Source: Scytonema millei VB511283 (lineage in GTDB: Bacteria; Cyanobacteriota; Cyanobacteriia; Cyanobacteriales; Chroococcidiopsidaceae). Taken from it: a DNA stretch of 64,000 nt. The notes below the pieces were generated by a model that saw only the letters and a program-made list of their open reading frames with translations, was not told where the DNA came from and ran no database searches. Of the stretch, positions 36,591-43,806 are shown one piece after another; the first letter of the stretch is position 1; every line of letters begins with the position of its first letter. The translations under genes were made by a program, and so were the position numbers. Where the stretch lies: NCBI RefSeq assembly GCF_000817735.3, contig NZ_JTJC03000001.1, positions 567,710-631,709 on the forward strand, given 5' to 3'.

Positions 36591-36612
36591 TGACACATTC
36601 ATGTCATATTTG
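36591..36612 (+). promoter_or_regulatory. phased 11-bp direct repeats after rppB
   Basis: TGACACATTCA and TGTCATATTTG abut with an 11-bp period. The pair matches the repeats at 42239-42260 in 16 of 22 positions. OmpR-type regulators bind such direct repeats about one helical turn apart, and an OmpR-type regulator gene (rppA) is 2 kb upstream. A possible -10 (TAATAT) begins 22 bp downstream. Confidence 0.4.
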
Positions 36613-36835
36613 TGCGGCAAACTCAATTTAAAGTAATATGCAGAAGTCGCTGACTTCTAGCAACTTTTACTTGTAAATCCCCGTTGAGAAATTTAGTTAT
36701 ACAGCAATGAGTTGTGGCTAAAAATTGACGAACTTACCATCAAGTACCTTTTTAATACAAGTACCATTAGCCAGAAGCAGTAGATATGACCGAGCTTTCT
36801 AATTGACATAAGTCTTCACCTAAAAAATTGACGAT

Positions 36836-40323: not shown

Positions 40324-41460
40324 ATGACCAACAACAAACCTACAATGTCTCAGAATTCTGTTGTGAAAAAGTCAGTAACTTATTTATCTTTAATATTTAT
40401 GGGGGCTGCGGGTAGTTTGTTAGGAACCCAACTATTACCCAACCGACCGGAGTTAATCCCACCATCAGTTGCTCAGCTCCCGGCTCAGGTTCCTAGCGGA
40501 AACATTAACTTTATTGCTAACGCTGTAGACCGTACTGGTGCAGCGGTTGTCCGTATTGATGCGGCACGGGCTACCCGCCCTAGACAACCTGGAGCTAGGA
40601 TAGTGCGGGGAACTGGCTCGGGCTTTATTATCAAGCCGGATGGTTTAATTTTGACAAACGCTCACGTGACTGGTGGAGCTGATACTGTCAACGTAACGCT
40701 GAAAGATGGACGCAAATTTACTGGTCGGGTCTTGGGTAGAGATGAATTGACAGATGTGGCTGTAGTGAGAATTCAAGCCAATGATTTGCCTACTGTTACC
40801 GTAGGCAACTCTGACAACCTCCGACCTGGAGAGTGGGCGATCGCGATCGGCAATCCTTTAGGATTAGATAATACTGTTACTGCTGGCATCATCAGCGCTA
40901 CAGGTCGTTCTAGCAGTGATGTAGGCGTTCCCGACAAGCGTGTCGGTTTCATTCAAACTGATGCGGCGATTAATCCCGGTAATTCTGGCGGACCCCTACT
41001 AAATCAGCAAGGTCAAGTTGTGGGCATGAATACAGCAATTATCGGCGGCGCTCAGGGGTTGGGTTTTGCGATTCCGATTAATCGAGCGCAGCAAATTGCC
41101 GAGCAACTGGTTGCTAAAGGGAGAATCGATCGCGCCTATTTAGGGGTTCAAATGGCAACTCTCAACGACGAGATTCGAGAAACCCTAGCTCAAGAATCTA
41201 ACGGTGATGTCACCATCTCTGCTAGCCAAGGGGTAGTCGTCTTAGGAGTCGAGCGCAATTCTCCTGCTGCTGCTGCGGGTATCCGTCCTGGCGACGTGAT
41301 CCAGCAAATTAACGGGCAACAAGTAAAAACTGCCGATCAAGTGCAGCAAGCAGTAGAAAACAGCCAAATCGGTGTCAATATCCCGCTTGAAGTCAGTCGC
41401 AATGGCAGAAATATTCAGCTCTCGGTAAGAGCGGGTGAATTTCCTGCAAGCGCTAGCTAA
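40324..41460 (+). CDS. HtrA-family serine protease (HhoA/HhoB/HtrA type)
   Basis: This gene encodes 378 aa from the ATG at 40324. An ATG at 40345 is an equally plausible start. A membrane anchor or signal (VTYLSLIFMGAAGSLLGTQL) is near residues 17-37. The trypsin-like domain (about 65-260) has the triad His114 (TNAHV), Asp144 (LTDVAVVRI) and Ser221 (GNSGGPL). One PDZ domain follows (about 265-370, RAYLGVQ and SPAAAAGIRPGDVIQQINGQ). It degrades misfolded proteins in the periplasm or lumen. Which of the three cyanobacterial paralogues it is cannot be settled here. The next gene starts 81 bp later on the same strand. Confidence 0.93.
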   Translation: MTNNKPTMSQNSVVKKSVTYLSLIFMGAAGSLLGTQLLPNRPELIPPSVAQLPAQVPSGNINFIANAVDRTGAAVVRIDAARATRPRQPGARIVRGTGSGFIIKPDGLILTNAHVTGGADTVNVTLKDGRKFTGRVLGRDELTDVAVVRIQANDLPTVTVGNSDNLRPGEWAIAIGNPLGLDNTVTAGIISATGRSSSDVGVPDKRVGFIQTDAAINPGNSGGPLLNQQGQVVGMNTAIIGGAQGLGFAIPINRAQQIAEQLVAKGRIDRAYLGVQMATLNDEIRETLAQESNGDVTISASQGVVVLGVERNSPAAAAGIRPGDVIQQINGQQVKTADQVQQAVENSQIGVNIPLEVSRNGRNIQLSVRAGEFPASAS

Positions 41461-41541: not shown

Positions 41542-42174
41542 ATGGATAATCTGCCCAATCCCAACTGGTGTTATCAAGTTTTAGAAATCTCCCCAACGGC
41601 GACGGCGCAAGAGATTAAAATGGCTTATCGCCAGTTGGCGCGGAAATATCACCCCGATCTCAATCCAGGCGATCGCGCTGCGGAAGATCGATTTAAACTC
41701 GTCGTCCAAGCATACCGCACCTTACTCACCGTCCCATCGCAGCCATCTTCCAGCACTGCTACAAAATCTACACCACATCCAGAAACTACCTCTTCTACTT
41801 ACAGTACAGGTGGCATACGCTTCCATGTCAAGCAACGCGACCTCACGCCTCCCTCTCCTCCCCTCTCTTCAGAAGAAAAGTTACTCAAATTGAGTACGCT
41901 CAACCAAATCTACACTTTAATCAAGCGCCAGAATTTTCAGCAAGCGGTAGACATAGCAGAAAAGCTAGCTATCCGCTTTCCCAAAGATCCAGACGTGCAA
42001 CCGTGGCTGGCTGTAGCTTACCATCGTTGGGCAAAACAGCTGATCTCGCGACAACAGTGCGATCGCGCTAGAGTTTATCTCAAAAAAGCTTTGCAAGCCG
42101 ATCCTCACAACCAGAAGTTATGGCGAGAAATCGATCGCGATTACAAAGTTATAGAACGCCAGTTAATGTTTTGA
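41542..42174 (+). CDS. DnaJ-domain protein with C-terminal TPR-like repeats
   Basis: This gene encodes 210 aa from the ATG at 41542. The longer frame to 41464 has no conserved sequence. Residues 9-72 are a J domain with [18 protein letters not shown] and the HPD motif ([10 protein letters not shown]), which stimulates Hsp70 ATPase. A Ser/Thr/Pro-rich linker (75-115) follows. Then come two helical pairs ([20 protein letters not shown], and [20 protein letters not shown]) like TPR repeats. There is no G/F region or zinc domain, so it is a J-domain adaptor (type C), not DnaJ itself. It lies downstream of the htrA-like gene and may share its unit. Confidence 0.88.
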
Positions 42175-42238
42175 TCCGCAGAGCCATTGACCGTACCAAT
42201 ATTGATGACTGCATTTTCTAACCAAATTCATATCTAAC

Positions 42239-42276
42239 TGTCACAGTCATGTCACATTCATTCACTATCTTATAAA
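42239..42276 (+). promoter_or_regulatory. phased 11-bp repeats plus -10 box of candidate small RNA
   Basis: TGTCACAGTCA (42239-42249) and TGTCACATTCA (42250-42260) abut at an 11-bp period, and a TATAAA box follows at 42271-42276. No -35 hexamer is evident. The repeats occupy the -35 region, as expected for activation by an OmpR-type regulator. It drives towards the unit at 42283-42362. Confidence 0.5.
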
Positions 42277-42282
42277 TGGCTG

Positions 42283-42362
42283 CAACGAGTAAATGAGTTA
42301 CTCCTCACCCTATCCTCAATTCAGCGAGTAAATAGCCTCTCCATATTTTGGAGAGCTTTTTT
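42283..42362 (+). ncRNA. candidate 80-nt small RNA with a 12-codon ORF
   Basis: Predicted from a promoter-like box and a strong terminator with 80 bp between. The transcript would have a 5' hairpin (GAGTAA-atgag-TTACTC, 42287-42303), a single-stranded CU-rich middle (CTCCTCACCCTATCCTC) and the terminator stem. An ORF of 12 codons (MSYSSPYPQFSE, 42293-42331) starts in the hairpin loop and ends just before the terminator, so the RNA may instead encode a tiny peptide. The octamer GAGTAAAT flanks the ORF on both sides. The CU-rich part resembles the Yfr1 motif ACUCCUCACAC with one mismatch, but the location and pairing differ. Confidence 0.45.
42337..42362 (+). terminator. rho-independent terminator
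   Basis: CTCTCCA pairs with TGGAGAG around a TATTT loop, followed by C and six T. Lies 160 bp beyond the DnaJ-TPR gene and directly after the 12-codon ORF. Confidence 0.9.
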
Positions 42363-42406
42363 ATGTAATTCGCGCTAGGCTGTCTTCCTCTACACGTCTA
42401 TAGTCT

Positions 42407-43567
42407 TTAAAACTCAGGAACAAACAGTTCTCTCTTATTACCTGCATAGTGGCGATAGATAATTTCAGGCGAGTTACCCACCAATCGAGCTACATCTTTG
42501 GCATCTAATCCATTCCCTAGCGCCAGCGTAATGAATGTATGCCTCGTTTGGTATGGCTTGCGATAGGTAATATCTAAACCTGCTAAAACAGTTTTCCAAG
42601 CGCGATTTCGGAAATTGTGCAAGTCAATGTACTTTCCCGCTGGGCTAGGGAATAGCAGATCGTCAGGTTTTGTATTCTCTGGTTTAATACTGCTTAAAAT
42701 CGCTTGAACTTTAGCATTACAGGGAAATCGCCGCTTTTCCTGAGTCTTTAGTCCCTGCTTCACTGCTAGTCCTTTTTCTGAAACCGTAACTGCTTGCTCA
42801 AAACTAATGAATTTAAGATCGCTGGTAACGTGTTTCCATTGCAGCGCGATCGCTTCAGAAGGTCTAGCGCCTGTATTAAACAGGAATTCCACCAGTGGCG
42901 CGTAGAATTTATAGTAGCGATCGCATCTAAATGCTTGAATAATTTTGTCTCGCTCGGCTAGGGAGAATGGATCGATATCCTCTTCTACCTTCTTGGATTT
43001 AGGTAGCTCAATCTCATTTGCCATGCCATAAAATGGATTTTCTAAAATCAGTCCTGATTTGACTGCCCACTGACAGCAAGAATTAAGTGCCACGATAAAT
43101 CGCTTAGCTGAATTAATCGGAATAGTTTGCAGTACGCAATCTCGAATGTCATTAGCTCGATCTAAATCGTGAGTGGGTAGCCTCTCCAGATAACTAGAAT
43201 AGGCACGATACTGATTTTTCATCGTGCTAGGCGCACATTGAGGGCGCTTCCACTCAACATACTTGTCCCAAATTTCCGCTAAGTTAACTTTTGGGGTAAA
43301 AATTGGGGTAACTGGAATTACTGTACTGAATGCTGATTTTGGTTTGTATTTTTCTAAGGTTTGGTCGAACCGCTCGTAAAGAATATCTTTCTCAATTTCA
43401 CTTGCCTTCATTTTTGCTAGCTTTTGATACTGCGAAGTATCAGGAAAGCCAGTTGATAAATAATGCCGCTTACCTCCGTAACTGAAGACTAGTTGCAGGC
43501 GGTTGTTAGATGACTTTATTTGTACGGAACCTTTAAAAGCCTTACCCGCTTTTCTATTGGTCTGCAT
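42407..43567 (-). CDS. phage-type tyrosine recombinase/integrase
   Basis: This gene encodes 386 aa, ATG at 43567. The N-terminus (about 12-60, VQIKSSNNRLQLVFSYGGKR, with YLSTGFPDT) is an arm-type DNA-binding domain. A core-binding SAM-like domain lies at about 98-185. The catalytic domain (about 205-380) has Arg in FNTGARPSEAIALQW, the box II YQTRHTFITLALGNG with Arg-His, and the nucleophile Tyr in EIIYRHYAGN. It integrates or excises DNA at an att site. Its start lies 168 bp from the 3' end of tRNA-Thr, the classic integration arrangement, but no cargo or second att copy is seen in the window, so it may be a lone remnant or a domesticated enzyme. Confidence 0.9.
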   Translation of the reverse strand: MQTNRKAGKAFKGSVQIKSSNNRLQLVFSYGGKRHYLSTGFPDTSQYQKLAKMKASEIEKDILYERFDQTLEKYKPKSAFSTVIPVTPIFTPKVNLAEIWDKYVEWKRPQCAPSTMKNQYRAYSSYLERLPTHDLDRANDIRDCVLQTIPINSAKRFIVALNSCCQWAVKSGLILENPFYGMANEIELPKSKKVEEDIDPFSLAERDKIIQAFRCDRYYKFYAPLVEFLFNTGARPSEAIALQWKHVTSDLKFISFEQAVTVSEKGLAVKQGLKTQEKRRFPCNAKVQAILSSIKPENTKPDDLLFPSPAGKYIDLHNFRNRAWKTVLAGLDITYRKPYQTRHTFITLALGNGLDAKDVARLVGNSPEIIYRHYAGNKRELFVPEF

Positions 43568-43734: not shown

Positions 43735-43806
43735 AGCCGATGGCGGGATTTGAACCCGCGACCGCTCGATTACGAATCGAGTGCTCTACCACTGAGCCAC
43801 ATCGGC
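43735..43806 (-). tRNA. tRNA-Thr (anticodon CGU)
   Basis: A full 72-nt cloverleaf can be drawn: 7-bp acceptor GCCGATG/CATCGGC with discriminator U, D arm GCTC-AGTGGTA-GAGC, anticodon arm CTCGA-TTCGTAA-TCGAG giving anticodon CGU, 5-nt variable loop, and T arm GCGGG-TTCAAAT-CCCGC. The 3' CCA is not encoded. The tRNA 3' end faces the integrase gene. Confidence 0.97.

Follow-up and report, generated by a model that had tools for sequence, protein, structure and literature searches.

Positions 42239-42362 of the window (the whole 64,000-nucleotide stretch of Scytonema millei VB511283 DNA that was analysed) almost certainly contain a small-RNA gene. The reading which we favour, at somewhat better than even chances, is that of a stress-switched sRNA of the Yfr1/Yfr10-like kind repressing outer-membrane proteins, for which we infer expression, regulator and target effect. 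Read directly from the letters are the anatomy of the unit (Table 1), its conservation, the recurrence of its operator with sRNAs and with htrA, the conservation of its stem, and the complementarity found at porin starts. An earlier note had proposed that a small, regulated RNA is transcribed here independently, the stretch supplying its operator, promoter and terminator, and at the level of sequence this proposal is supported.

Table 1. Features of the small-RNA unit, in positions of the window
Feature	Start	End	Strand	Remarks
First operator half-site TGTCAC	42239	42244	+	Exact 11-bp direct repeat; in relatives also found ahead of sRNAs, htrA and ctpA
Second operator half-site TGTCAC	42250	42255	+	Exact 11-bp direct repeat; -10 element at fixed 10 nt
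-10 element TATCTT (TANNNT)	42266	42271	+	Same offset in 19/19 places
Predicted sRNA, about 85 nt	42278	42362	+	Putative start 7 nt after the -10 element; end from the T run
5' hairpin GAGUAA-AUGAG-UUACUC	42287	42303	+	Predicted fold; stem test; 3' arm includes ACUC of the motif
12-codon ORF	42293	42331	+	ATG 42293, TAA 42329-42331; judged non-coding; not kept in paralogues or relatives
Yfr1-type motif ACUCCUCACCC	42300	42310	+	10/11 letters of ACUCCUCACAC; motif as given in the accessible part of PMC2190773
Intrinsic terminator, 7-bp stem CTCTCCA/TGGAGAG and six T	42337	42362	+	Stem 42337-42355

The genome of Scytonema millei (G000; 5.97 Mb) has two sister genomes in the genus. Among these three genomes, the block 42233-42373 is identical to the sisters at 141/141 (1.000) and 140/141 (0.993) positions, whereas identity amounts to 84.5% and 82.8% in the upstream spacer (42175-42232) and to 91.3% and 82.6% in the 23 bases 3' of the block. 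For the J-domain gene it is 95%, and positions 42278-42363 are identical in both sister genomes (86/86). Because the block is near-identical in the sisters and its flanks have diverged, the conserved unit is the operator together with the predicted transcript. The J-domain gene ends 65 bp before the element. The placement between a J-domain gene and an integrase gene was given correctly in the earlier note, but the integrase gene is an incidental neighbour and not part of the element: G002 has the element intact, and its alignment to the window stops at about 42396, ahead of that gene. The tyrosine integrase gene (42407-43567, minus strand), absent here in G002, lies near a tRNA-Thr gene (43735-43806, minus strand) and is perhaps the remnant of an element using the tRNA gene. 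That the region merely ends the J-domain or integrase gene, as a terminator or 3' part, and gives no transcript of its own, could be argued from the 65-bp distance and from a terminator-like site predicted on the reverse strand at the same stem. This is extremely improbable, however, since full conservation extends beyond the terminator to operator, -10 element and RNA, the integrase is absent at this place in G002, and the same module occurs in unrelated neighbourhoods.

Good matches in a DNA similarity search were limited to the genus with its three genomes, the remaining ones being short and chance-like, and therefore patterns of operator and motif were used to find relatives. With a 23-nt hairpin-plus-motif pattern and 3 mismatches, 4/388 genomes were matched, the fourth match (G243, L068) lying within an ORF. 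At the loci of J-domain homologues from the family's other genera, read for synteny, no such element adjoins the gene.

The pair of adjoining 11-nt direct repeats from the earlier note is present as TGTCACAGTCA (42239-42249) and TGTCACATTCA (42250-42260), and the half-site of the operator can be written as TGTCAC/T. TGTCACN5TGTCAC occurs at exactly 3 sites in the 5.97-Mb genome, and all of these exact copies stand ahead of small-RNA-like units. One paralogue (C1:363178; L069/L098) sits between a trkA-like gene and lipA, as named by reading the ORFs, and has the seed CUCCUCACACC; the other (C11:10068; L147/L196, 10003-10068, minus strand) has the seed UUCCUCAUGC. Both possess the exact operator, a hairpin and a terminator, and both are also found in G001 and G002. 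An operator profile built from 24 sites, the element's own site among them, scored 37.2 bits at the element, and the next best values in the window were 16.8 and 8.5. The second-best match (36591-36623, plus strand, TGACACATTCATGTCAT; 16.8 bits) has no -10 element at the offset.

Within the order, TGTCAN6TGTCA followed by CTCCTCAC yielded 21 rows in 17/376 genomes, with 1 in the reversed control. A relaxed operator combined with the Yfr1-type pattern UYCUCA was found at 71 places in 60/376 genomes, no more than these 60 being reached by exact patterns. The reversed control gave 18, so that chance would account for about a quarter of the 71 places. Over the phylum, a related pattern occurred in 4/386 genomes, all within the order (control 0). 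The family shows two architectures in many gene neighbourhoods. In class A, to which the window unit belongs, the first letters of the motif are taken up by a 5' hairpin, the motif then continues single-stranded, and a terminator closes the unit; a class B unit is a single long hairpin ending in T's, with the motif in its loop. Class B loci behind the operator are L101-L105, L227, L235, L302 and L303, and in L302 and L303 the loop carries two pyrimidine-rich motifs. The window unit and the units in 19 family loci match no Rfam family at threshold; the only Rfam matches in those 19 loci are nearby tRNA and tmRNA.

The search pattern did not require a -10 element, and TANNNT nevertheless follows the second half-site at precisely 10 nt in every one of the 19 places (the 21 rows minus L093, which has no hairpin unit, and L110, which is the same place as L094), as against at most 3/19 for any other offset; these places include orthologues, and the ten dissimilar ones among them all agree on the offset. 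TATAAA, taken for the promoter box in the earlier note, exists at 42271-42276, but it starts at the last base of TATCTT, which by comparison is the -10 element, so that the box had been placed 5 nt off. Scanning the region for the sigma-70 consensus revealed no promoter, as would be expected if an activator site takes the place of the -35 element. PMC1906773 describes E. coli PhoB sites as 8-bp repeats joined by linkers of 3 bp and lying 10 bp upstream of TAN3T/A. The layout observed here, direct repeats with an 11-bp period and TANNNT 10 bp downstream, fits an activator promoter of the PhoB/OmpR type. Since the repeats are spaced as in PhoB sites and the -10 element follows at the same 10 bp, a phosphate-starvation sRNA controlled by SphR could be considered. 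This is very improbable, because the SphR box of cyanobacteria, as far as described in PMC1906773, is near CTTAACCT, which the half-site TGTCAC/T does not resemble, and because no phosphate gene is among the recognised genes downstream of the operator. The activator which we infer is of the PhoB/OmpR type but distinct from SphR.

The 5' hairpin, the CU-rich stretch and the strong terminator described in the earlier note are all present. In the DNA, the arms GAGTAA (42287-42292) and TTACTC (42298-42303) enclose the loop ATGAG, and the CU-rich stretch begins at 42300. The fold of the RNA has a z-score of -2.4, with 3/200 shuffles being equally good. As an alignment with MAFFT failed to line up the 5' arms, the stems were tested sequence by sequence, and the 5' stem of the window unit alone gave p values of 0.018 and 0.027 in such shuffle tests. 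Over 16 units, the class A stem that adjoins the motif beats the shuffles with a Fisher p of 4e-10, a value that overstates the result, since the units are not all independent; the shuffles preserve base composition only and not dinucleotides, 5/16 units are not significant singly, and L095, L129 and L144 were left out, of which L144 was not significant in an earlier test. The arms vary between units: GAGUAA/UUACUC, GAGCA/UGCUC, AGUAGAC/GUCUGCU, GCAAACAA/UUGUUUGC and GAGUAGGG/CCUUACUC.

This variation also bears on the 12-codon ORF that had been offered as a possible micro-ORF. The frame exists, and its ATG, its 12 codons and a stop right ahead of the terminator are what a translated micro-ORF or leader peptide would have. 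In a comparison of stem and codons with paralogues and relatives that retain operator, motif and terminator, the hairpin was kept by differing sequences and the peptide was not: ahead of the motif, they lack an ATG, have one in a different frame, or encode a different peptide. Also, no gene follows on the same strand 3' of the element, the integrase being encoded on the other strand. Coding is thus not supported, and a translated product is scarcely credible. The octamer GAGTAAAT, noted as flanking the unit, is indeed repeated, within a 12-nt repeat (42283-42294 and 42322-42333), but its second copy was not seen in the aligned paralogues and relatives.

When the motif was dropped and 120 genomes were searched for the complete operator, 31 places turned up in 23 genomes. 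The reversed control had 15, with two genomes accounting for ten of these, so that the enrichment is only some twofold. Among the 30 annotated sites (30/31), 11 precede sRNA-like units as judged by reading, 3 precede htrA (Pfam trypsin and PDZ domains), and another 3, all in one genus, precede a ctpA-type S41 protease gene (L134 domain-tested). The others stand before small secreted proteins or single unrelated genes or inside ORFs, and these may be chance occurrences. In 89 upstream regions of htrA (30 loci and 59 fetched regions, covering part of the htrA matches, L198 with 264 bases), the operator repeat is present in sense in 11, in ten of them 78-175 nt before the predicted start. The full operator pattern was detected in 8/89, with 0 antisense and 0 reversed matches, and the shorter repeat without the -10 element gave one antisense match. 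In L227, L235 and L102, the operator, a hairpin with the Yfr1 motif and htrA follow in succession. All five htrA genes of the Scytonema millei genome are without the operator, and therefore the link to htrA comes from relatives; the htrA gene of the window (40324-41460), two genes upstream of the sRNA, may be near it by coincidence.

On contig 81 of G022, two operator sites (L127, L146) are located by small secreted proteins, one of them weakly DUF5666-like, and an OmpR-type regulator gene, which is a possible lead to the regulator. This context, which we take to be like that of NrsR/RppA, would suit an operator of a metal-type response regulator and an sRNA for metal or redox stress. It was, however, seen in one genome only, and elsewhere the operator precedes htrA and ctpA, so that a metal response is improbable. 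Activation of a stress type, by a PhoB-like regulator which in relatives also serves htrA or ctpA, is instead probable. This stress logic is proposed because the operator precedes htrA/ctpA and one to three such RNAs in different lineages. The general stress-induced genes of Synechocystis 6803 include htrA as well as ctpA, according to PMC6789579.

As predicted targets, the start regions of porin genes were analysed. In 6/12 OprB porin genes of the genome, GGTGTGAGG, the complement of the Yfr1 motif, lies no more than 25 nt from the start with one mismatch or none (a perfect match in L180, L181, L185 and L188; one mismatch in L179 and L187), as compared with 0/144 background ORFs (Fisher p 5e-8), the starts of the porin genes L183 and L189 being uncertain. 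Beside the starts of the other six OprB genes it is missing. The window RNA keeps UCCUCAC, and its A-to-C difference from the Yfr1 motif breaks the longest porin pairing. Its duplex energies with the porin starts are better than background (p 0.0017), with 5/12 past the 5th percentile of the background. For the RNA beside lipA and for canonical Yfr1, which stand out from the background more clearly than the window RNA, 8/12 porin starts each are past this percentile. The targets favoured by the window RNA may therefore differ. GGGTGAGGAG, which would pair perfectly with the window seed, has 71 sites on both strands of the genome against 5 for the reversed sequence and is thus 14 times commoner; these sites are probably dispersed spacer repeats, and therefore no targets were read from such matches. 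The earlier suggestion that the CU-rich middle could pair with ribosome-binding sites gains support from the motif and from the complementary porin start regions. Two porins are given as Yfr1 targets in Prochlorococcus MED4 in the accessible text of PMC6778093, and OprB-like porins, Omp85, TonB-dependent transporters and cell-wall enzymes as predicted or validated Yfr1 targets in Nostoc 7120 in that of PMC6974561.

The mechanism proposed from these observations would work as follows. A putative PhoB/OmpR-type response regulator would bind the two TGTCAC half-sites and recruit RNA polymerase to the -10 element. Thereby, a trans-acting RNA of about 85 nt would be made. It would carry a hairpin at its 5' side, another as terminator, and between them the pyrimidine-rich seed CUCACCC, which adjoins the paired ACUC and is predicted to be accessible. 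This seed would pair with G-rich ribosome-binding sites in mRNAs of outer-membrane proteins, porins first, and block their translation, so that envelope or protein-folding stress would raise the proteases while lowering the load of new outer-membrane proteins. Repression of outer-membrane proteins is, by a modest margin over even chances, the expected main effect.

More tentatively, at slightly below even chances, many cyanobacteria of the order may have a PhoB-type envelope-stress regulon at TGTCAY-N5-TGTCAY, which joins htrA/ctpA with fast-evolving, porin-silencing sRNAs carrying the Yfr1 motif, as an independent parallel to the sigma-E/Cpx sRNA arm. The Cpx system of enterobacteria has an sRNA logic of this kind. 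In the proposed regulon, the sRNAs would lie sometimes in the leader of htrA and sometimes be present in several copies with diverged seeds (CUCCUCACACC, CUCCUCACCC and UUCCUCAUGC in this genome). The joining of sRNAs and proteases would be its novel part: in the accessible literature, which takes in a minority of subscription papers, no link was found between the action of Yfr1 on the cell envelope and the stress proteases HtrA and CtpA. For the question of how control of the Yfr1 kind is switched on by stress, the element offers an operator together with a set of genes and of predicted targets.

Among known systems, the window unit resembles Yfr1 (RF01116) in its pyrimidine-rich motif (10/11), its 5' hairpin, its terminator and its approximate size, and also in porins being the likely targets. 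The differences are as follows. The covariance model of RF01116 gave no match in 42150-42450 at E up to 10, and thus nothing at or above 38 bits; in the whole genome it found five places, all elsewhere than the element. The true Yfr1 of the genome (L001, 61.8 bits) lies between guaB and trxA, as named by reading the sequence. Yfr1 contains the fully conserved undecanucleotide ACUCCUCACAC, whereas the window has ACUCCUCACCC. In Yfr1 this motif is unpaired between two stem-loops; the window unit also has two stem-loops, but ACUC is paired in its predicted 5' stem. Yfr1 is usually located beside guaB and/or trxA, unlike the window unit with its J-domain and integrase neighbours, and the canonical Yfr1 copy is without the repeat operator which the window unit has. 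With none of the four defining features tested found in it, the element is not a member of Yfr1, though it is predicted to work alike.

Yfr1 itself is near-universal in cyanobacteria, and its level barely changes under the stresses tested in Prochlorococcus (PMC6778093, accessible text). The same text describes Yfr10-like sRNAs (Yfr10, Yfr104, SyR5 and two RNAs of Nostoc 7120) as extra RNAs with the Yfr1 motif and variable structure and place. The unit found here likewise has non-conserved structure and synteny, with two architectures in many neighbourhoods, and it has a true Yfr1 in the same genome, though its motif agrees at 10/11 positions and its transcript is predicted. Yfr10 carries the motif in a hairpin loop (PMC6778093), like the class B relatives, whereas the window unit is an open class A unit with one motif mismatch. 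The TGTCAY operator was not found in the accessible descriptions of Yfr10-like sRNAs, and SyR5 of Synechocystis precedes sll0737 and not htrA, as far as stated in PMC5386190. The element is best called a Yfr10-like variant. Yfr10 rises in darkness, and Yfr2 pairs with both Yfr1 and Yfr10 (PMC6778093, same text), so that the RNA might serve mainly light/dark or carbon-nitrogen adjustment, with cross-talk by titrating Yfr2 or being titrated by it, rather than envelope stress. The operator shared with htrA/ctpA in relatives and the complementary porin starts of the genome itself make this rather unlikely.

For the favoured reading of a stress-switched repressor of outer-membrane proteins, the closest logic is that of Salmonella and E. 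coli, in which sigma-E dependent sRNAs repress omp mRNAs (accessible part of PMC1804206). The likeness lies in the proposed logic, by which a regulator raising periplasmic proteases would also make sRNAs lowering outer-membrane proteins. The sigma-E system uses a sigma factor, whereas the window has an operator of the response-regulator type, and the comparison is therefore one of logic, with no homology claimed.
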